From Prevotella melaninogenica (GTDB lineage: Bacteria; Bacteroidota; Bacteroidia; Bacteroidales; Bacteroidaceae): a stretch of DNA of 64,000 bases. Position 1 is the stretch's first letter. Each line of letters starts with the position of its first letter. The stretch lies in NCBI RefSeq assembly GCF_018127925.1, contig NZ_CP072347.1, positions 1,366,501-1,430,500 of the forward strand, written 5' to 3'. The notes beneath the pieces were generated by a model. It was not told where the DNA came from and did no database searches. It saw only the letters and a program-made list of their open reading frames with translations. Made by a program: the position numbers and the translations under genes. Of this stretch, positions 49,432 through 59,480 are shown piece by piece.

Positions 49432-49590
49432 ATAACTTGTTTACTTGTCAACTCGTTTACTTGTCAACTCGTTTACTTGTCAACTTGTCTACTCATCTAC
49501 TTGAAAATGAATAGAGTTAAAACAACACTTTGACTCGACAACTCTATCAAATAACTTGTTTACTTGTCTACTTGTTTACTTGTCAACTCG
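49432..49590. repeat. 'TTACTTGTCAACTCG' tandem repeats between ispH and the macroglobulin gene
   Basis: Two runs of TTTACTTGTCAACTCG units (49437-49502 and 49555-49590) lie either side of AATAGAGTTAAAACAACAC, with related AACTCTATC(T/A)AATAACTTG starts. The same family is found inside dcp. The second run supplies the last codons and stop of the macroglobulin-like gene. Confidence 0.85.
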
Positions 49591-52500
49591 TATAACCTCC
49601 GCACCTGTACGTCCGCTATATTCTGGTGCGTATGCACATTGTGCGGTACAGGTTCCTGTCTGATAAACACCAGCACGGTCAATATAATATTCTGTCTCTA
49701 CGACATGCTTACCTTTAGCCATTTGGTCGAAGTAGTAATTAGTCGTGTAATCCTTTGGAGCAATGTAATATCCCCAACGATAACCACTCAACTGACTGAC
49801 AGGCTCAAGGCAAGCTGCACGCTTATCAACTACTTGCACAAAGTCGTAATCACGGTCAGCAATGATCGTCAAACGGATACGCACCTTGTCACCAACTTTA
49901 AGGTTCTTACCTCTCTTCAACAGTACACTATCAACCATGACTTCACGCTTAATCTTCAAGCCAGATGAAGCATCAGAGATATCTGTTGACGCCTGGAAGA
50001 ACTGTGCATAGACAGCACCCCAACTTGTGCCAGTGCTTGTCTTGCTGATAACCAAATCATGAATCTCAGACGAGTGGAAATCAACAGACTGCGTAGCTTT
50101 CACATAACCTAACCCTGCCGTAGGCTGTGTTGTCTGCAATGGCTTATTATCAAGCATTAATGTAGCATGCTCTCCATTCTGCATCAACCAGTTGCCATTG
50201 TTCATAAATGCCCAAATAGCATTCACTGAGTTCAATGGTGTATCCCAAGCCTGCGTACGCTTCTCCTGTAAGAGCCAACGCTGCATCTCAACAAGCGTCT
50301 TACCATCAGTAGGAGTAATGGTCTTTATCGCCTCAATAGCAGCCACCTCTGTTGGAATCTTATAATCACGCCAGCTGTAATAAGCGTTTTTAGAATCGAA
50401 ATAACATCCCTTCTCCTCCGTATAAACCGTATATTCCTTGATACTCTGGAGATATTCGCGCGCCTTTTCAACCTTACCATACTGCTGAAGGATTACTGCA
50501 GTATTCGCTTTACCATAGATAGTCAAGTCCGTAGGCTTCTTGGTCAGGCGGTCAATGAGGTACTTTATGTCATTTGTAGCTCGGTCATGATAGAACAAAG
50601 CATTGGTGTAAAGATAATCACAAAGGTCATCAGATGGGAAGAGTATCGTATTATACTTCTTCTCATCACGCTTCATTTCAGCCACACACTTAGCTACCTT
50701 CTTATCCATAAAGCGGAAAGAAGCGTTAATCATGTTTGTTACCTCTGGGCTTGGACTTGTAAGATTCTGCAAACGAGCAAGTGTCTTTGTCACCGCAACT
50801 GTCATATACAGACTTCCCCTCATTCCTTGCCACCAAGAGAAAGAACCATCAGAGTTTTGTAGTTTCTTTAGACTTGAGAATGTTGATGTCAACTTGTTCT
50901 GCAACTGATTCTCATCAAAGAAGCGCACGAGTTGCTGTTTCTGTTCGCTTTCATTCTTAGCATCCATCACCCAAGGAGTCTCATCAAGTGTCAAAGACTT
51001 GAGTTCTTGATTCTTCTCCAAAGCCGACATCATTGACGTTTCCTTGCCTGTTTCCTTCTTCCATTGCTCGATTGTCTGCTTAATCGATGGGGAAGTACTT
51101 ATAATCTGCTTACCCAAACGATTTGCATAATAAGCCGAAACAAGACTGATAGCATTCTTTTCATTTGCATCTGCGACATAAGGCAATGCCTGAATCATCA
51201 GCCAATTAGGGTTATTGGTGTACTCTACTGTCAGCTTCTGTTCCGTACTCTTCTTTGGGAAAAGCTTACCAACATTAATCGTCTTCACCTCTGCTTCATT
51301 CTGTGTGAATGGATAGGTGTTTGTTACATACTCCTTATTCTGAAGTACTGAGAGGTAATGTTGCTCACCATCAGAGAAGCCATCGCCCTCAACCGTGAAG
51401 CGAACAACAAGCAATGACTGGTCAGCTGTAAGCTTATTTGTATTCTGTGCTAATAAAGAAGCTAAGCTATAAGTTGCAGAACCACTCCCCTGCGCCTTCA
51501 AAACAACAGCTTTACTATCCGTAAAGAGCACCTTCTCTGTTGCAGGGTCAAGGATTTCAATCTTTGCTTTTGCCTTGATATCCTTCTCAGACTGATTAAA
51601 CAAACGAGCAGAAACCATTGCTTCGTCACCCATACGTACAAAACGAGGCATATTAGGTTGCACCATCAAGATCTTCTGAGCAACGATATCATCAGAAAGG
51701 AAGCCATTATTCATATCCTCATCGTGTGCCAATCCCATGAATCGCCACGTAGTAAGACTCTCTGGAAGCGTAAACTTAATACTAACATTACCCTTTCCAT
51801 CCGTCTGCAACTGTGGATAGAAGAATGCTGTCTCATTGAGATTCTCACGCATAGAAGGCTTTACATTCTTCGGTTCGTCCTTTTCTTGTTTTATCTCCTC
51901 ATCTTTCTTTACTACAGGAGCAGTAAATTTCGCTTTCGTTTCCTTAGTAGGTCCAAAGCCAACCTTAACGACCTCATTCATAGAAGACTCCTTTGCCAAA
52001 GCCATTGTCTTAACGGTACGTGTCATGCTTACCATTCGGTCTTCTCTTGCTGAATAAATATAAGCATCTGGCGTATCATAATCTTCCAAGAAGCGACTAT
52101 CAAATCTCGAGAAAGACAATAGCTCTACATCAAAAGGTTTGATATTAGCTTCCCATGAAAGACCCAAACCTGAATAATCAGGCCTCTCCCAATTAACAGA
52201 TGTATAGTTAAGCGAGAAGAAGTTACCTAAGTTCCATGAATTAGACAAGAACTGATCAAGACTCTTGTCATAAAGCGTTGCCATCAGTTGAGCATTGGCA
52301 GCCTTACCATCAGGACGATTAATAGTTACTGTCCATTCCTCCTGCTGACCAGGGATAAGTTTATTACGGAAAGTCTTCCATTTCACAATTAAGCTCTTAT
52401 CTGGTAACGGACGTATAATCCTCTCTGAATGAGCATACAGAACGCCATTCTTTACCCAAGCATAATTAAGAAATATCTCATCACCATACTCTTCCTTATA

Positions 52501-55122
52501 GACAAACTTGCATGTCTGTATACTATTGCTTTGATTGAAAGAACCTGTTTCAATCACTTTATTACCTGAGAAGATAGAATAAACAACATACTGATTCTCA
52601 TCACTTGAACCCACCTGCATATAGATAGGACCACCATCGCGAGGGAATTGGATTCCACTCAGATAGAACCAGTCATGTGTCTCAATAACTGGACGCTTAT
52701 CATCAAAAGAGAAGACGACAAAGTCCTCATCTATCGTATCTGTTCCACAAATAGCATGTAGGCGATAAGCACCAGAAGACAAACCCTTTATAGCAACATT
52801 CTCATTTGCCTTTGCGGTCTTGTAATCGCTATAAACATAATTATTCTGATCCTTCTGCTGTGGTACAATTACATACTTCACTGTTCCATCAACAGGAGAT
52901 CCTGCAGCGTTTAGGTAATAAAACTTAATCGTTTTAAGACTGTCACGCAGATTCTTCTCAGCAATATTGCAAGAAAGACTTGCCTCCTTTGTTCCTAATG
53001 GCAATGAAGTAAAACCGTCATGTGTCTCACCTGCGGCATCAGTCACCGAAGCCTCAACTCTAAAGTTATAGAAAAGTGAACGATAACCCTTACCAGACTT
53101 CAGTTCTTTCTTGGCTTTGTCAGATAAGACAAAAGGCACGGTAACAACAAACTCTCCCTTGTCATCTGTGACAACATCTTGTTCATTCACTTCCTCACTA
53201 CCTTCATAGAAGCGACACCAATAGCTTATATTACGTGTAACGACATAATGCACCTTTGCACCTTGTACAGGTACACCAGCAAAACTCTTGGCACAACCAA
53301 TCAACTTGATAGAATCACCGACAGCATACTTCTCCTTATATTCGTCAAAGTTTACATCAAACGTTGGACGCTTGTACTCATCTACTTGGAAACGCTTAGA
53401 TCCTTTTGTTCCAAAATCAGCATAAATAGAGAAGCTACCAGTCAGTCCACTTGATGGAAGATTAAAGTCTGCTGCAGCAGTACCGAAACGGTCTGTGGTT
53501 ACTGACTTACGTCCAATCTCCTTATAATTGGCATCTTTCAAAACCATATCAAAGGTTTGTCCGCCTGCAGCCTTAGTCTTATAGTCTTGCTTTGTGTTCT
53601 GATAAGCAATGACAGATGCGTGCACCGTCTGTCCGGGACGATAGATACCTCTATCCGTGAAGACCTGTGTTACCATCTTGTCATAGTTCACCTTGTCGTA
53701 ATCATACGAACCCTCCAGTTGAGTTTCTTCAAAGGCTTTATCCTTATTCGTAAAGACATAGATGTCAGGGGTAGTTCTTCCCGAATCAAAAACTACCTCT
53801 CCATTCTTGTTCGTAACCAGTTTCTTGACGATAGAAGACTTATCATTATAATTTGGATAGGTAGCCTGAACCGTTGCATTTGCTACTGGTTGCCCATCCA
53901 CAACATTGACAACAACATACCGTGCTTTCTTCTTTGGCTGTAGTTCGCTCATGACATAGAGGTCACTAACATAGTAGAAAGCATATTCTGGTGTAAAATT
54001 CTTTTTTGGCGTTTCTACCTTAATGAGGTAAACACCCAAAGGTAATGTAGGCATTAAGAAAGAGTCTTTCACCTCTTCATAATCCTTATGACCAGTAAAA
54101 GTACGGGTTATCGTCTGCGTTGTTGCTGGCAACAGACTTGCCTTCAACTTAGCCATGTCGTCCTTATCTCCAAGACTGAGAGAATGATTACCTGATAGTT
54201 TCGTACGCATAATCGTTACGATTACATCTGATACATTGCGCGTATTCAGCTTAACCCAGTTATTCTTCTCCGTCGAACTAACATTACGCTTATCGAAACT
54301 CACTTCAAACATCGGTCTTGTCAGTTCTGCACGAGCATTACGTAATGATGTGATTCTATTCCATGATGCCCAACGGACAAGTGCATTATCAATATAGGCT
54401 ATCTTTTCCTCAACCGGAGTATCTTCTCCCATACAAGCATAACGCTTCAACGCAACTTCTCCACATATCGGTAAGTCACTATATGCTTGCATGAGTGAGT
54501 CGAGCTTTGAAATACTCTCTTTCTCCTCCTTTATTCCCATCAATGCCGTGTAACAAGCAGCCTCACGGTTTCCAACGCTTTTATAATAGCTATGTAATTT
54601 GTCGTAGTTACCTGCCTGCATACCAATAACATGCAATAGGTCACCCTTAAAGATATCATCGTTCTTACCTATCTTTATCAAAGGCTTAAAGTCGGCTGCT
54701 TTCTGACTTGCCAATAGAGAAGGGTTAGCAAGTGCCTTCTTGAAGTATTCGTCAGCATTTCCACTTTCTTCATTCCGTCCTATCACGCCCAAGATACAGT
54801 TGTAGACAGCCGACAAGACTTCATCCTTCCCTTCTACCATCTTTGCCTTTGCCTTCAATCGCTTTAACTCTACCTCAGCAGAGTCGGGTGCAATCTCTGT
54901 CTGTAACCTTGATGCTAACAGACTTGCTGCCAAGATTTGCCCATAGGCTTTCTCTTTCTGTGCTTTCTGTTCTATCTTCTTTAACAAGCTGATTTGTGTC
55001 TTTGGTAAGTCCTTTTGCTCAGCTTGATTTACTTGTTGCCATAAGGCATCGAAGCTCTGTGCTGTTACTGTAATTGGCAACAACAGAAATATAATTGATA
55101 AAATGATAAGTGGTTTCTTCAT
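49576..55122 (-). CDS. Giant alpha-2-macroglobulin-like protein without thioester motif
   Basis: This 1848-residue exported protein (signal PLIILSIIFLLLPITVTAQ) has macroglobulin-like domains. MG2 is recognised at VFTDRGIYRPGQTVHASVIA (about residue 500). The A2M core lies at LNETAFFYPQLQ and FTLPESLTTWRFMGLAHDED, and an alpha-toroid (thioester-type) domain begins near 1300. At the place where CxEQ is expected the sequence reads PYVADANEKNAISL, so no thioester can form. Such large periplasmic proteins are thought to trap or regulate proteases or stabilise the envelope. The final residues RVDK and the stop codon come from a dispersed repeat. Confidence 0.92.
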   Translation of the reverse strand: MKKPLIILSIIFLLLPITVTAQSFDALWQQVNQAEQKDLPKTQISLLKKIEQKAQKEKAYGQILAASLLASRLQTEIAPDSAEVELKRLKAKAKMVEGKDEVLSAVYNCILGVIGRNEESGNADEYFKKALANPSLLASQKAADFKPLIKIGKNDDIFKGDLLHVIGMQAGNYDKLHSYYKSVGNREAACYTALMGIKEEKESISKLDSLMQAYSDLPICGEVALKRYACMGEDTPVEEKIAYIDNALVRWASWNRITSLRNARAELTRPMFEVSFDKRNVSSTEKNNWVKLNTRNVSDVIVTIMRTKLSGNHSLSLGDKDDMAKLKASLLPATTQTITRTFTGHKDYEEVKDSFLMPTLPLGVYLIKVETPKKNFTPEYAFYYVSDLYVMSELQPKKKARYVVVNVVDGQPVANATVQATYPNYNDKSSIVKKLVTNKNGEVVFDSGRTTPDIYVFTNKDKAFEETQLEGSYDYDKVNYDKMVTQVFTDRGIYRPGQTVHASVIAYQNTKQDYKTKAAGGQTFDMVLKDANYKEIGRKSVTTDRFGTAAADFNLPSSGLTGSFSIYADFGTKGSKRFQVDEYKRPTFDVNFDEYKEKYAVGDSIKLIGCAKSFAGVPVQGAKVHYVVTRNISYWCRFYEGSEEVNEQDVVTDDKGEFVVTVPFVLSDKAKKELKSGKGYRSLFYNFRVEASVTDAAGETHDGFTSLPLGTKEASLSCNIAEKNLRDSLKTIKFYYLNAAGSPVDGTVKYVIVPQQKDQNNYVYSDYKTAKANENVAIKGLSSGAYRLHAICGTDTIDEDFVVFSFDDKRPVIETHDWFYLSGIQFPRDGGPIYMQVGSSDENQYVVYSIFSGNKVIETGSFNQSNSIQTCKFVYKEEYGDEIFLNYAWVKNGVLYAHSERIIRPLPDKSLIVKWKTFRNKLIPGQQEEWTVTINRPDGKAANAQLMATLYDKSLDQFLSNSWNLGNFFSLNYTSVNWERPDYSGLGLSWEANIKPFDVELLSFSRFDSRFLEDYDTPDAYIYSAREDRMVSMTRTVKTMALAKESSMNEVVKVGFGPTKETKAKFTAPVVKKDEEIKQEKDEPKNVKPSMRENLNETAFFYPQLQTDGKGNVSIKFTLPESLTTWRFMGLAHDEDMNNGFLSDDIVAQKILMVQPNMPRFVRMGDEAMVSARLFNQSEKDIKAKAKIEILDPATEKVLFTDSKAVVLKAQGSGSATYSLASLLAQNTNKLTADQSLLVVRFTVEGDGFSDGEQHYLSVLQNKEYVTNTYPFTQNEAEVKTINVGKLFPKKSTEQKLTVEYTNNPNWLMIQALPYVADANEKNAISLVSAYYANRLGKQIISTSPSIKQTIEQWKKETGKETSMMSALEKNQELKSLTLDETPWVMDAKNESEQKQQLVRFFDENQLQNKLTSTFSSLKKLQNSDGSFSWWQGMRGSLYMTVAVTKTLARLQNLTSPSPEVTNMINASFRFMDKKVAKCVAEMKRDEKKYNTILFPSDDLCDYLYTNALFYHDRATNDIKYLIDRLTKKPTDLTIYGKANTAVILQQYGKVEKAREYLQSIKEYTVYTEEKGCYFDSKNAYYSWRDYKIPTEVAAIEAIKTITPTDGKTLVEMQRWLLQEKRTQAWDTPLNSVNAIWAFMNNGNWLMQNGEHATLMLDNKPLQTTQPTAGLGYVKATQSVDFHSSEIHDLVISKTSTGTSWGAVYAQFFQASTDISDASSGLKIKREVMVDSVLLKRGKNLKVGDKVRIRLTIIADRDYDFVQVVDKRAACLEPVSQLSGYRWGYYIAPKDYTTNYYFDQMAKGKHVVETEYYIDRAGVYQTGTCTAQCAYAPEYSGRTGAEVIRVDK

Positions 55123-55210: not shown

Positions 55211-55831
55211 CTACCGCACAATATAATTAAACTTATCAAAGTTTGTAAAGCCCATCTCTTCCAACTGTTGTTGGCTTCGCTGGCGGTCTTCATCTGTGTT
55301 ATATTCAGGTATCAAGGGTAGACGGATGATTACCTTATCAGCATATCCGTTCGCTGCTAACCATTGAAGATTACTAACGACCTGCTTATTCTCTTTACGT
55401 CCATACGCTTTGTAGATATCAGGGTTCATGTCCTTTATATCTACATACCACATCTGCACCAACGAGGCAATAGCTTTGACATTCTCAAGCGGTACGTTGA
55501 GCGATGTCTCTATTGTCAACTTCCATTCGGGATTCATGATCTCGGCAAAGGCCTTGATGAAGTCTGAACGTAAAAGGGGTTCACCACCGCCAAAACAGAT
55601 ACCGCCACCCGTTGCCACAAAGTAAAGATCGTCTATCTCCACCTCACTATACAACTCACCGGGTGTCAGCCTGCACCATACACCATCAGCCTGCAAGCAC
55701 TGAGCGTTTAAGCAGTACTCGCAATGCAGCGGACAACCATGAAAGCCTACCAATGTTGTTACGCCTTCGCCATCCGTGGTGAGCCTGTGCCGATTAATGG
55801 CAATAAACGGTGCTGTTATTTCTGATTGCAT
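55211..55831 (-). CDS. Radical SAM protein closing the five-paralogue operon
   Basis: This 206-residue radical SAM enzyme binds a 4Fe-4S cluster through Cys33-x3-Cys37-x2-Cys40 (GCPLHCEYC). The SAM-binding GGGEPLL motif and a later strand LTIETSLN are also visible. The start (TTDGEGVTTLVGFHGCPLHC) is like glycyl-radical-enzyme activases, but no glycyl radical enzyme is nearby. It is short, with no SPASM or other C-terminal domain and no extra clustered Cys. It overlaps the fifth paralogue gene by 16 bases and ends the operon, so it is made together with those proteins, which are its most obvious substrates. That link is inference. Confidence 0.9.
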   Translation of the reverse strand: MQSEITAPFIAINRHRLTTDGEGVTTLVGFHGCPLHCEYCLNAQCLQADGVWCRLTPGELYSEVEIDDLYFVATGGGICFGGGEPLLRSDFIKAFAEIMNPEWKLTIETSLNVPLENVKAIASLVQMWYVDIKDMNPDIYKAYGRKENKQVVSNLQWLAANGYADKVIIRLPLIPEYNTDEDRQRSQQQLEEMGFTNFDKFNYIVR

Positions 55832-56517
55832 TTCTCTTTATGTGATTGAGGAACAGTACTGTCGGCTAATTCTTTCTCTAAATACTCCCAGTCTATCTCT
55901 CCTACTTTGTCAAGAGAAGGATCTAAACGGACCACCATATCATCAGGATTACGAATAGACTTCACTGCTATCACCTTATCCTCAAACCCATAAGATGAAA
56001 AAACGAGGGTGTCATTACGATTAACCTGCAATACAAATCTTCCATCTTCGCCCAAAGACAGCCTCTTCTTACCTCCTAATAACATAACATTAACTTCCGA
56101 AGCAGCCTTACCAGTAGAAGAGTCGAGCACTCGTCCAATAATAACAATAGCATTCTTCAAATCTGCAGTGAGTGCTTTTGGTATCACTTCTTGCTTGCCC
56201 ATAACTGGCGTATCAGTAGAATCCTGAGCTTTATTCTCAACGTTGCAAACTTTGGGAGTGTTCTGACATGATGTAAGCGGAACCGTAGCAACACAAAGAC
56301 CAGCAGCCAAACCAGCCACTTTCATGCCCCATCCTTTGCGTTTCCGTTCTCTTAACTGCGTCTCTAAATAGCGTATCTCCGCTTCACAAGCAGGGCAAGT
56401 ACCTGCACAATCCCCTTCGTAATGACACTCCTTAGGCTGATAACTGATACCATTGGCATCTGCTATCTGCTGTCGAATATCCTTTAGTAGCTTACAAGTA
56501 CTCTTTCCTTTCGTCAT
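55816..56517 (-). CDS. Cys-motif/carboxypeptidase-regulatory-like protein, paralogue 5 (lipoprotein variant)
   Basis: This 233-residue protein is the last of five tandem paralogues. N-terminal region: KGKSTCKLLKDIRQQIADAN, then Cys31-x5-Cys37-x3-Cys41-x2-Cys44 (GDCAGTCPACEAEIRYLE). Its membrane segment (GMKVAGLAAGLCVATVPLTS) ends in a lipobox-like LTSC|Q, unlike its sisters, which end in AAAQ. A Ser/Thr linker follows, then a carboxypeptidase-regulatory-like beta domain (IVIIGRVLDSSTGKAASEVN). It ends SHKEKCNQK. It is preceded by paralogue 4 (11 bases) and overlaps the radical SAM gene by 16 bases. Function unknown. Confidence 0.82.
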   Translation of the reverse strand: MTKGKSTCKLLKDIRQQIADANGISYQPKECHYEGDCAGTCPACEAEIRYLETQLRERKRKGWGMKVAGLAAGLCVATVPLTSCQNTPKVCNVENKAQDSTDTPVMGKQEVIPKALTADLKNAIVIIGRVLDSSTGKAASEVNVMLLGGKKRLSLGEDGRFVLQVNRNDTLVFSSYGFEDKVIAVKSIRNPDDMVVRLDPSLDKVGEIDWEYLEKELADSTVPQSHKEKCNQK

Positions 56518-56528
56518 AATACTAATCC

Positions 56529-57236
56529 TTACTTACACTTCTTTTTATTCTTCTCCTTATGCGTCCTCGGCTTATAAGTCCTATGACCATACACATCATC
56601 GTAGTTTGGTAAAACAGATCCAATTCCTCCTACTATCACCGACACATCATAGGCTTCCAGTACAATAACATTATCATCTGAACGCAAAAGAGAACTTACA
56701 CTAACCGTTTTCTGCTTGTAACCAATGAATGAAATAACCAACGAAGTATCTGGTGGTAACTTCAAAGCAAACAAACCATCTATATTTGTTGCCACACCCT
56801 TGTTTGTTCCCTCTATTAAGATAAAAGCTCCTATCAATGGTTCTTTATCATCACTACCAATGACCATTCCACGTACAACCACAGGTGATGCACAACTTTC
56901 AGAAAGGTCTACTACCTTTACAGAATCTTTCTTGGCTGTACGCACAGGAAGATTAGAAGTACTATCGGGCTTAACATTTTGCGCAGCAGCAGTCATTGGC
57001 ATTACCGTAGCACAGATACCTGCAGCAATTCCAGCCACCTTCATACCGAAGCCATTACCCTTACGTGCCTTTAACTCACGTTCAAGATAACGTATCTCCT
57101 CCTCACAAGCAGGGCAAGTACCTACACAATCCCCCTTGTGATGACACTCCTTAGGCTGATAACTGATACCATTCGCATCCGCTATCTGCTGCCGAATATC
57201 CTTTAGTAGCTTACAAGTACTCTTTCCTTTTACCAT
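56529..57236 (-). CDS. Cys-motif/carboxypeptidase-regulatory-like protein, paralogue 4
   Basis: This 235-residue protein has Cys8, 31, 37, 41 and 44 in the N-terminal motif (CHHKGDCVGTCPACEEEIRY), then a membrane or signal segment (GMKVAGIAAGICATVMPMTA, AAQ). A linker follows, then a beta domain with PVVVRGMVIGSDDKEPLIGA and GVATNIDGLFALKLPPDTSL. That is the carboxypeptidase D regulatory-like fold seen at the start of SusC proteins. It ends with THKEKNKKKCK. Spacing to both neighbours is 11 bases, the same intergenic sequence, suggesting tandem duplication. Function unknown. Confidence 0.82.
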   Translation of the reverse strand: MVKGKSTCKLLKDIRQQIADANGISYQPKECHHKGDCVGTCPACEEEIRYLERELKARKGNGFGMKVAGIAAGICATVMPMTAAAQNVKPDSTSNLPVRTAKKDSVKVVDLSESCASPVVVRGMVIGSDDKEPLIGAFILIEGTNKGVATNIDGLFALKLPPDTSLVISFIGYKQKTVSVSSLLRSDDNVIVLEAYDVSVIVGGIGSVLPNYDDVYGHRTYKPRTHKEKNKKKCK

Positions 57237-57247
57237 AATGCTAATCC

Positions 57248-57961
57248 TTACTTACACTTCTTTTTATTCTTCTCCTTATGCGATTTCGGTTTATAAGTCC
57301 TATGACCATATACGTCATCTTTACTGGTAGGTAGTGTAGCTATTGTTACAATGCCATCTAACATTGCCTCTCTATCTTCCTCAAGCACTATAACATTATT
57401 ATCAGAATGCAAAAGAGAGCTTACATGAACCTTCTTTGTCTTGTATCCGATATATGAAATAACCAACGAAGTGTCTGGTGGTAACTTCAAAGCAAACTGT
57501 CCATCCACGTTTGTTGCAACGCCCTTGTTTGTTCCGTCTATAACAACAGAAGCACCTATCACAGGTTCTTTATCTTCTGCGTCTATGACCATTCCACGTA
57601 CAACCACAGGTGATGCACAACCATCAGAAAGGTCTACTACCTTTACAGGGGCTTTCTTGGTTGTTTGTACAGGAGGGTTAGCCGTACTATCGGGCTTAAC
57701 ATTTTGCGCAGCAGCAGTCATTGGCATTACCGTAGCACAAATACCTGCATCGATACCAGCTACCTTCATACCGAAGCCATTACCCTTACGTGCTCTTAAT
57801 TCACGTTCAAGATAACGTATTTCTTCCTCACAAGCAGGACAAGTACCTGCACAATCCCCCTTGTGGTGACACTCTTTAGGCTGATAACTGATACCGTTCG
57901 CATCCGCTATCTGCTGTCGAATATCCTTTAGTAGCTTACAAGTACTCTTTCCTTTTGCCAT
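57248..57961 (-). CDS. Cys-motif/carboxypeptidase-regulatory-like protein, paralogue 3
   Basis: This 237-residue protein has the same layout: Cys8, 31, 37, 41, 44; one hydrophobic segment; beta domain (VVRGMVIDAEDKEPVIGASV, FALKLPPDTSLVISYIGYKT); an acidic insert after the domain (LEEDREAMLDGIVTIATLPT); and a C-terminus SHKEKNKKKCK. Oddity: Asp71 sits inside the hydrophobic segment (VAGIDAGICATVMP), where the others have Ala. Very close to paralogue 2, so a recent duplicate. Function unknown. Confidence 0.82.
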   Translation of the reverse strand: MAKGKSTCKLLKDIRQQIADANGISYQPKECHHKGDCAGTCPACEEEIRYLERELRARKGNGFGMKVAGIDAGICATVMPMTAAAQNVKPDSTANPPVQTTKKAPVKVVDLSDGCASPVVVRGMVIDAEDKEPVIGASVVIDGTNKGVATNVDGQFALKLPPDTSLVISYIGYKTKKVHVSSLLHSDNNVIVLEEDREAMLDGIVTIATLPTSKDDVYGHRTYKPKSHKEKNKKKCK

Positions 57962-57972
57962 AATACTAATCT

Positions 57973-58707
57973 TTACTTACACTTCTTTTTATTCTTCTCC
58001 TTATGCGACTTAGGCTTATCAGTTCTACGACCACTCACGTTATCTTTATTACCTTTATTTTCATCTTTACAAGTAGGTAGTGTAGCTATTGTTACAATGC
58101 CATCTAACATTGCATCTCTATCTTCCTCAAGCACTATAACATTATTATCAGAATGCAAAAGCGAACTTACATGAACCTTTTGCTTCTCATATCCTATTAA
58201 AGAAATAACCAACGAAGTGTCTGGTGGTAACTTCAAAGCAAACTGTCCATCGATATTTGTTGCAACGCCCTTTTTTGTTCCGTCTATTACAACAGAAGCA
58301 CCTATCAATGGTTCTTTATTATCACTGCCTACGACCATTCCACGTACAACCACAGGTGATGCACAACCATCAGAAAGGTCTACTACTTTTACATCGCCTT
58401 TCTTAGCTGTATGTACAGGACGATTAGCCGTACTATCGGGCGTAACAGCTTGCGCAGCAGCGGTCATCGGCATTACCGTAGCGCAGATACCTGCTGCAAT
58501 ACCAGCCACCTTCATACCGAAGCCATTACCCTTACGCACCTTTAACTCATGTTCAAGATAACGTATCTCCTCCTCACAAGCAGGGCAAGTACCTGCACAA
58601 TCTCCCTTGTGATGACACTCTTTAGGTTGATAGCTGATACCATTCGCATCCGCTATCTGCTGCCGAATATCCTTCAATAGCTTACAAGTACTCTTCCCTT
58701 TTGCCAT
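57973..58707 (-). CDS. Cys-motif/carboxypeptidase-regulatory-like protein, paralogue 2
   Basis: The protein has 244 residues from the ATG at 58707. The frame extends 29 codons upstream, but that part overlaps the end of paralogue 1, and the family start MAKGKSTCKLL fixes the position. N-terminal Cys8, 31, 37, 41, 44; hydrophobic segment; beta domain (VVRGMVVGSDNKEPLIGASV); acidic segment shared with paralogue 3; and an extra polar insert (CKDENKGNKDNVSGRR) before the Lys-rich end SHKEKNKKKCK. It begins 4 bases after paralogue 1. Function unknown. Confidence 0.82.
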   Translation of the reverse strand: MAKGKSTCKLLKDIRQQIADANGISYQPKECHHKGDCAGTCPACEEEIRYLEHELKVRKGNGFGMKVAGIAAGICATVMPMTAAAQAVTPDSTANRPVHTAKKGDVKVVDLSDGCASPVVVRGMVVGSDNKEPLIGASVVIDGTKKGVATNIDGQFALKLPPDTSLVISLIGYEKQKVHVSSLLHSDNNVIVLEEDRDAMLDGIVTIATLPTCKDENKGNKDNVSGRRTDKPKSHKEKNKKKCK

Positions 58708-58711
58708 AACT

Positions 58712-59410
58712 TTATTTCTTATTACACTTCTTTTCCTTATGCGATTTCGGTCCTTTCTTCGCCTTATGCTTCCCGAACATTTTATCGCATCCACCCAAGA
58801 CTACAATTTCATTCATCATCGCTGAGTCCTCAGTGATATAAATATCATTATTCTTTTTATCTAAGAGTTCTTTAACTGTCACACTCATTTTATAATAACC
58901 AATACCTCTCACCTCCAGTGTATCAGTTAGCAGAGCTTTCACAGCATACTCGCCCTCAATATCGGTGACATCTCCTTTTTTTGTGTCCTTCAACCCAACA
59001 ACGGCTCCAATAATAGGCTCCTTTGTCTTTGTATCGAACACCTTCCCACGTAATAGAACAGCATCAGGCTGACCATTGGTCAGGTCTACCGCTCTTATAG
59101 AATCATTCTTTATCGTCTTAGCCTTAAAGTCAGGACTAATCTTACTCTCTGTTTGTACCATAGCAGCCATTGGCAATACTGTCACACAGACGCCTGCTGC
59201 AATACCAGCCACCTTCATACCTAAACCGCTATGCTGTTTATTCTTTAATTGTTCTTCAAGGTAACGGATTTCTTTCTCACAGCCAGGACACGTACCTGTA
59301 CATTCACCCTTATGATGACACTCTTCAGGATGATAGCTTATTCCATTCTCATTTGCTATTTTCTGACGGACATCCTTCAATACCTTGCAAATGGCTCTCC
59401 CCTTTTCCAT
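58712..59410 (-). CDS. Cys-motif/carboxypeptidase-regulatory-like protein, paralogue 1
   Basis: First and most diverged of the five, 232 residues. It keeps Cys8, 31, 37, 41 and 44 (CHHKGECTGTCPGCEKEIRY), the basic amphipathic N-terminal helix (CKVLKDVRQKIANENGISYH) and the hydrophobic segment (GMKVAGIAAGVCVTVLPMAA). It also keeps the beta domain (VLLRGKVFDTKTKEPIIGAV, DIEGEYAVKALLTDTLEV) and the C-terminus SHKEKKCNKK. It is the operon's first gene, with a promoter about 40 bases upstream. That these parts survive in the most diverged copy marks them as functionally important. Confidence 0.82.
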   Translation of the reverse strand: MEKGRAICKVLKDVRQKIANENGISYHPEECHHKGECTGTCPGCEKEIRYLEEQLKNKQHSGLGMKVAGIAAGVCVTVLPMAAMVQTESKISPDFKAKTIKNDSIRAVDLTNGQPDAVLLRGKVFDTKTKEPIIGAVVGLKDTKKGDVTDIEGEYAVKALLTDTLEVRGIGYYKMSVTVKELLDKKNNDIYITEDSAMMNEIVVLGGCDKMFGKHKAKKGPKSHKEKKCNKK

Positions 59411-59450
59411 AAATTATTATTTAAGCGTTAGTAAATAAAAGACCTTGCTA

Positions 59451-59480
59451 CAAAAATATAAAAAAAAGAAGATAAACAAA
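59451..59480 (-). promoter_or_regulatory. Promoter of the paralogue-radical SAM operon
   Basis: Minus strand TTTG (59480-59477), 18 bases, TATTTTTG (59458-59451). Spacing is one or two bases shorter than ideal. A leader of about 35 bases. Confidence 0.6.

Follow-up and report, generated by a model that had tools for sequence, protein, structure and literature searches.

A five-cysteine domain and a small radical SAM enzyme form a widespread pair with a predicted role in protein modification

Several described systems resemble the one reported here. Activases of glycyl radical enzymes carry the signature DGPGxR, auxiliary-cluster domains take the second electron, and Haft and Basu reportedly described a radical SAM/lipoprotein pair in which the enzyme lies beside lipoproteins in Bacteroidales, a pair whose models we take to be TIGR04133 and TIGR04134. 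According to the papers cited, Asp16 and Asn38 of PFL-AE make contacts to Gly734 in simulations (PMC9326890), the small spare-part protein YfiD/GrcA copies the PFL C-terminus and has its glycine radicalised by PFL-AE (PMC8683613), and the fingerprint of glycyl radical enzymes is RVXG[FWY] (PMC11528403). Here, we analysed a window of 64,000 nucleotides of Prevotella melaninogenica (contig NZ_CP072347.1, positions 1,366,501 to 1,430,500), where five tandem genes for proteins that begin with a five-cysteine (five-Cys) domain are followed by a gene for a small radical SAM enzyme. The two form a real and widespread pair, which probably serves radical SAM protein modification by a chemistry that we can only propose. 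An earlier reading of the letters (the sequence-only reading) had proposed an undescribed system of one enzyme and several partners, and this has held up: no Pfam or NCBIfam model was found for the pair, and the literature searched, which covered few subscription papers and included the available text of PMC10352776, PMC11528403, PMC9326890, PMC8683613 and PMC10470005, contained no description of the pair or of the second motif introduced below.

Open reading frame (ORF) calling placed six genes on the minus strand between 55211 and 59410, the five paralogues and then the radical SAM gene:

58712-59410, minus strand: paralogue 1, 232 residues; five-Cys domain, hydrophobic segment, CarboxypepD_reg-like domain and basic tail; Pfam PF13715 at 58.2 bits
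57973-58707, minus strand: paralogue 2, 244 residues; architecture as paralogue 1 (ORF, Pfam, alignment)
57248-57961, minus strand: paralogue 3, 237 residues; architecture as paralogue 1 (ORF, Pfam, alignment)
56529-57236, minus strand: paralogue 4, 235 residues; architecture as paralogue 1 (ORF, Pfam, alignment)
55816-56517, minus strand: paralogue 5, 233 residues; lipobox-like LTSC; CarboxypepD match just under the Pfam cut-off
55211-55831, minus strand: radical SAM enzyme, 206 residues; Pfam PF04055; row L178 of the tree
59225-59410, minus strand: five-Cys domain of paralogue 1, residues 1-62 (alignment)
58522-58707, minus strand: five-Cys domain of paralogue 2, residues 1-62 (alignment, AlphaFold2 model)
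57776-57961, minus strand: five-Cys domain of paralogue 3 (alignment)
57051-57236, minus strand: five-Cys domain of paralogue 4 (alignment)
56332-56517, minus strand: five-Cys domain of paralogue 5 (alignment)

Paralogue 2 probably starts at the ATG at 58707 rather than as a longer GTG ORF. The enzyme gene overlaps paralogue 5 by 16 bp (55816-55831), as the sequence-only reading had noted, and the remaining intergenic gaps are 4, 11, 11 and 11 bp. The same reading had described Cys8 and Cys31-x5-Cys37-x3-Cys41-x2-Cys44, a carboxypeptidase-regulatory-like domain and one membrane or signal segment, and these features were recovered. The five cysteines are present in 5/5 paralogues, the Pfam domain CarbopepD_reg_2 is above the cut-off in four and just under it in the fifth (31.2 vs 32.2 bits), and a hydrophobic stretch after residue 62 was seen by eye in all five, as was the lipobox-like LTSC of the last one. 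Their sequences suggest that the paralogues are exported. The enzyme matches PF04055 with 59.6 bits (cut-off 29.5).

The pairing of the Cys domain with the radical SAM enzyme is well supported. A search of 60 genomes with residues 1-69 of paralogue 2 gave matches in 15, among them the window's own, and strong matches to the enzyme (at least 237 bits; next best 62) were found in exactly the same 15, two of which (G019 and G030) carry the enzyme on a different contig from the Cys gene. Profile searches of 299 genomes of the same genus found both components in 95, the Cys domain only in 4, the enzyme only in 5 and neither in 195; in the same family (n = 201) the corresponding numbers were 24, 1, 0 and 176. 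The thresholds were E<1e-15 for the Cys domain and more than 200 bits for the enzyme, and the family count omits four genomes with motif matches of E 2e-5 to 2e-3 and five with enzyme matches of 92-109 bits. Exceptions of the kind on which the sequence-only reading had made the pairing depend, genomes with the Cys motif and no such radical SAM gene, were rare (4/299 and 1/201). Three motif-only genomes of the genus (G060, G200, G234) had no strong radical SAM match in a second search; in G075 the enzyme gives way to other sequence after about 30 residues, perhaps at an assembly joint. The radical SAM protein of G197, an enzyme-only genome of the genus, scored 111 bits and is perhaps another activase. 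At the order level, the Cys domain was found in 7 of 247 genomes, all seven with the enzyme. Weak motif matches in G428, G434 and G497 looked like chance.

When named genomes were scanned for DNA encoding M-x-G-K-[DE]-K-C-x2-L-[KR]-x-I-R, a pattern biased towards proteins with that start, at least 120 stretches with the Cys domain were returned. The 80 titles listed, among which some genomes appear repeatedly, comprise 38 Lachnospiraceae, 3 Lachnoclostridium, 9 Oscillospiraceae, 9 Paludibacteraceae, 12 other Bacteroidales and 9 others; Flexilinea and Methanobrevibacter appear with one record each, and these may be binning errors. All 120 listed stretches match the Cys-domain profile, part of which is demanded by the scan pattern itself, and all five cysteines are present in 80/80 proteins from the loci listed. 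The enzyme gene lies on the same strand within 1.5 kb in 90 of the 120. Nineteen of the other 30 belong to genomes that were searched whole, where a strong enzyme match was found elsewhere or just beyond the stretch for 17 and none for two (L254 and L263); counted by genome, 14 of the 16 with a Cys gene and no enzyme in the stretch had a strong match elsewhere or just outside. In the family of a Lachnospiraceae metagenome-assembled genome (n = 250), the enzyme reached at least 170 bits in 15 genomes, and the next matches, at 136 bits, were longer activase-like ORFs. The set is also carried by a plasmid of Segatella copri, whose partners are labelled 'energy transducer TonB' in RefSeq. Mobilisation and integrase genes lie near the system on this plasmid, and the system was also seen on an unverified phage scaffold (L419, L420); because of these two locations it may be mobile.

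The exact spacing of the cysteines is kept in all 27 matches of the 60-genome search (five of them the window's own) and in 215 of 219 collected proteins, so it is not due to chance; the collection was gathered with a somewhat looser Cys pattern and thus tests the exact spacing, not the presence of the cysteines. In a diverse set of 28 proteins, nine positions are invariant (G4, C8, L11, R15, C31, C37, G39, C41 and C44), C37 shifting by one once fused members join the alignment. The AlphaFold2 model of the paralogue 2 domain (mean pLDDT 80) predicts a helix at residues 3-21, the Cys loop and a helix at 42-62, and had no convincing fold match among solved structures. Scans of the window's five and of a number of relatives found no Pfam or NCBIfam family for the first 60 residues, only scattered weak matches, and the Cys domain had no PHROG match. 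A joint alignment of the enzyme and the Cys domain (A5) was not used because the Cys rows fell on the radical SAM cluster motif.

The Cys domain is followed by CarboxypepD_reg, TonB_C, serpin or HIRAN domains or by no known domain, lipoproteins included. The carboxypeptidase-like payload assigned by the sequence-only reading stands for the window's five paralogues and fails as a general feature, being only one of several payloads across the system. A further subtype consists of the Cys domain alone (85-93 residues), and in five genomes domain and enzyme are fused: the domain follows the enzyme in G627, G723, G260 and G122, and a divergent form of it precedes the enzyme in G850. By a crude hydrophobicity scale, a hydrophobic segment follows the domain in 196 of the 219 collected proteins, 162 of these with a lipobox-like motif, and is lacking in 23, serpin and HIRAN fusions among them. 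These 23 ruled out that the domain serves as an export leader only, and since it heads signal-less proteins, stands alone and is fused to the enzyme, the earlier view of the Cys part as an export leader as such had to be given up. Each enzyme is accompanied by one to several partners, up to six per genome. No third component emerged from the 22 largest neighbour clusters listed, of which only the enzyme and the Cys proteins recur in most loci.

The enzyme is a separate clade near the glycyl-radical-enzyme activases. In a tree, a single branch (99/100) separates 41 family members from 36 other radical SAM proteins with weak matches to the profile. The solved sequence nearest to the family profile is that of PFL-AE (E 7.9e-26), and the predicted model of the fused G723 relative (mean pLDDT 91.8) best matched 3cb8 (E 4.8e-16), which is PFL-AE with AdoMet and a peptide; SuiB and SkfB were also among its fold matches. 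The columns aligned to Asp16 and Asn38 of PFL-AE, D21 and N43, are invariant in 68/68 sequences, as are C34, C38 and C41 of the CX3CX2C cluster motif; the 68 (set A7) were chosen out of 168 distinct enzymes found. The window enzyme stays under the NCBIfam cut-offs of TIGR02494 (118.6 vs 174.35 bits) and TIGR02493 (83.7 vs 231.75 bits). Identity with the known lipoprotein/radical SAM pair was rejected, as TIGR04133 and TIGR04134 were neither among the best 25 of the 29-37 matches for three family enzymes nor in the list of any partner; the weakest listed NCBIfam match of the window enzyme had E 0.018. No SPASM domain was found in the window enzyme or in those of L212 and L237, which match only PF04055 and PF13353 besides one chance match (E 0.063), and the PF13353 match overlies the radical SAM motif. 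Unlike YfiD/GrcA, the five window paralogues had no glycyl radical domain in Pfam at E<=1. The RVxG[FWY] fingerprint occurred in 10 ORFs of at least 300 residues across 170 loci: six beside other activases, which served as positive controls, and four beside members of the system, where it lies at the start or in the middle of proteins unlike glycyl radical enzymes. Within these short loci, which do not cover distant genes, no glycyl radical enzyme with a C-terminal fingerprint was found beside members.

A second motif was noticed as L-x-G-D-V on reading the tails behind the Cys domain and is used here as the strict pattern [LIVMF]-x-G-[DE]-[VIM], or LxG[DE]V. The 219 proteins, of which 210 exceed 110 residues, gave 168 non-redundant tails. 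The strict motif is present in 124 of these tails, compared with 12.5 +/- 3.2 in 300 shuffles (maximum 21), and its rate is 7.9 per 1000 residues in tails vs 0.42 in 1062 control ORFs taken from these loci. Because the pattern was derived from the same data, an unsupervised expectation-maximization search was run on 117 non-redundant tails, excluding those with TonB_C and CarboxypepD signatures. It returned E-L-x-G-[DE]-[VI]-A-Y-P, with Gly at 0.97 and a log-likelihood of 721 (60 seeds) vs 146-162 in four shuffles (30 seeds each). Among TonB_C proteins, L-x-G-x-V precedes FPGG in 29 of 46 partners vs 4 of 20 proteins without the Cys domain, including one cut-off partner; with the strict pattern the difference was modest (17/46 vs 3/20). 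Counted by protein, the strict motif occurs in 150 of the 219 and in five of eight later ones, three of these five being near-copies; in G122 (L426) a single ORF holds a strict motif (ILGDI), the enzyme and the Cys domain. The fingerprint RVXG[FWY] and LxG[DE]V are both hydrophobic-x-Gly strings, a likeness that is only suggestive. A role of LxG[DE]V as a surface-sorting signal was ruled out by its presence in two phyla and in signal-less proteins.

There are few cases in which the enzyme and the motif are lost together. In Bacteroides sp. Marseille-P3684, all that is left of the enzyme is a stretch of 57 residues ahead of the HIRAN gene, and the core is DLGDVAPS, compared with ALQGDVAPP in two relatives with the enzyme; the HIRAN protein has one strict match elsewhere, within its HIRAN part. 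The HIRAN relative of G400 has lost three of the five cysteines and has no strict motif, and the best enzyme match there reaches only 76 bits. In G252 a stop interrupts the enzyme, and the partner retains the cysteines but has no strict motif.

We lean towards a two-part protein-modification system in which the Cys domain recruits the radical SAM enzyme, which acts on a backbone glycine. In its favour are the broad co-occurrence, the exchange of payloads, the fusions, the recurrence of LxG[DE]V and the kinship of the enzyme to PFL-AE, the residues at the glycine contacts included. For its steps we infer docking, hydrogen abstraction, a site and export. The five-Cys domain (helix, Cys loop, helix) would be a recognition module that docks onto the small enzyme, a presumed descendant of the glycyl-radical-enzyme activases. 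The target would be a backbone glycine of the docked protein, most likely that of L-x-G-[DE]-[VI], of which the tail has one to several copies. A 5'-deoxyadenosyl radical would abstract a hydrogen from the alpha carbon of this glycine, and candidate products are a stored radical, a Cys-Gly thioether or a different change at the alpha carbon. Export of the tail, often as a lipoprotein, would follow in most members and would bring the marked motif to the envelope. One enzyme would serve one to several partners with different payload domains, and it may be speculated that a cluster in the Cys domain takes the second electron. Among candidate sites we put the motif glycine first, with only slightly better than even confidence, and Gly39 or Gly62 next. 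The cysteines, which the sequence-only reading had considered as the modification site, are still candidates, LxG[DE]V, which it had not noticed, being at least as good.

Several observations weigh against this proposal. The Cys-loop glycine is constant in 219/219 proteins and Gly62 in 204/219, both more constant than the motif glycine, and the modification site may therefore lie in the Cys domain. The strict motif is absent from 69 of the 219 proteins (many with a relaxed form), from the stand-alone subtype, from four of the five enzyme fusions and from the HIRAN partner beside the uninterrupted enzyme of L425. It is also absent from all five window paralogues, which have only relaxed forms and for this reason are not the best first test substrates. 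The activase signature is only partly kept, as DGxGxT, in which D, G and G stay, P is variable and R is mostly T. Finally, the Fisher values for co-occurrence (3e-66 and 3e-30) are descriptive only, since kinship and gene adjacency inflate them. The relaxed forms in the window, whose role would be that of a core motif, are as follows:

58093-58107, minus strand: relaxed core motif L-D-G-I-V of paralogue 2, outside the strict LxG[DE]V; putative role
57347-57361, minus strand: relaxed core motif L-D-G-I-V of paralogue 3; putative role
56622-56636, minus strand: relaxed core motif I-V-G-G-I of paralogue 4; putative role

The best placed of the alternatives, possible and on balance unlikely, is that the Cys domain itself is modified, at Gly39, Gly62 or a cysteine, to give a crosslinked or metal-binding domain, with LxG[DE]V serving some other end, for instance docking or processing. 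No other part is common to all subtypes, stand-alone and fused forms included, and the constancy of its two glycines and the invariance of its five cysteines in the diverse set of 28 agree with this explanation. It does not account for the recurrence of LxG[DE]V in unrelated payloads or for the glycine in the TonB_C linkers of Cys-domain proteins, and Gly62, which follows helix 2 in the model, may act as a helix cap. We regard as quite improbable that the Cys domain binds an Fe-S cluster or zinc and is an electron-transfer or auxiliary-cluster partner, the paired proteins being redox partners and not substrates. The natural fusions at either end of the enzyme, the resemblance of C-x5-C-x3-C-x2-C to cluster ligands and the restriction of the scanned enzymes to PF04055 and PF13353 point that way, but up to six partners with different exported payloads per enzyme would be unusual for an electron donor, and the recurrent LxG[DE]V would again be unaccounted for. 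That the enzyme is a conventional glycyl-radical-enzyme activase, with the Cys proteins as mere neighbours, is very improbable in spite of its sequence and fold kinship to PFL activases, given the lack of a convincing glycyl radical enzyme beside members in the short loci (RVxG[FWY] test), the co-occurrence where the genes are not adjacent, the Cys-enzyme fusions, the separate clade and a window enzyme under the curated cut-off of TIGR02494.

Returning to the two-part modification system, a bolder version of it can be put forward as a tentative extension, one that we hold to be unlikely in its entirety. An activase lineage would have turned into a general protein marker, with the Cys leader supplying an auxiliary Fe-S cluster (in cis where the two are fused, otherwise in trans) and the enzyme radicalising the glycine of LxG[DE]V on mostly exported proteins; the result would be a crosslinked, cleavable or radical-bearing envelope tag in anaerobes of at least two phyla.

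Other genes and motifs were observed around these loci. A Sel1/LRR protein of about 1250 residues lies beside the stand-alone Cys domain and the enzyme in seven loci (L214, L237, L259, L273, L280, L294 and L369); the loci listed for this subtype also contain a protein of about 360 residues with a Cys-rich end and, in some, one of about 255 residues. In the Lachnospiraceae loci L235, L261 and L223, a protein of about 470-670 residues with an N-terminal zinc-ribbon-like stretch is encoded upstream of the Cys gene, and these proteins belong to a cluster that occurs in 10 loci. Beside the core/enzyme/Cys fusion of G122 lies another radical SAM-like gene of larger size (L426:6543-7796). A 556-residue ORF from the Lachnospiraceae family (L427:1925-3592) has about 290 Pfam-less residues followed by the Cys domain and the radical SAM part, and a 569-residue ORF (L425:5524-7230), Pfam-less over its first 350 residues and with the radical SAM part at its end, adjoins a HIRAN partner with a relaxed motif. 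In the window, an alpha-2-macroglobulin family gene (49576-55122, same strand) lies directly downstream after a gap of 88 bp and is not counted as part of the system. By eye, the C-termini of the window paralogues (55816-59410) have a basic tail, SHKEK..C, and many CarboxypepD-type partners have a DDVYG(H/R)-like motif. A defence or phage family was rejected after a PADLOC search in which the enzyme matched viperin models only (E 7e-6); a HIRAN partner matched PDC-M03B (5e-8) and the Sel1/LRR protein PtuA (0.0012).

The system occurs in gut anaerobes from two phyla and on a plasmid. If the proposed modification is correct, the enzymes would be a new family of radical protein modifiers, equipped with a recognition domain of their own and a short target motif, and would show a glycyl radical activase turned into a general protein marker. 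The predicted outcome is a change centred on the glycine of LxG[DE]V; the leader together with the motif might serve as a transferable tag.

Compared with known systems, the partners resemble TonB energy transducers in that some carry TonB_C, two of these being annotated as 'energy transducer TonB' in RefSeq; here, however, TonB_C is only one among the exchangeable payloads that follow the Cys domain, and the window's five are without it. The system shares with the radical SAM-modified ribosomal peptides (sactipeptides and ranthipeptides; SuiB, SkfB, PapB) the adjacent genes for enzyme and putative precursor, a candidate N-terminal recognition part and a repeated putative core motif. It differs in that the enzyme has no SPASM match in Pfam, the partners are larger and in many cases carry folded payloads and a signal segment, and the leader is a folded five-Cys domain. 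PFL-AE and the other activases (TIGR02493, TIGR02494) share the radical SAM core, are the best sequence and fold match, and align at the residues reported as glycine contacts; in contrast to them, the enzymes described here are shorter, form a clade of their own and pair with Cys-domain proteins.

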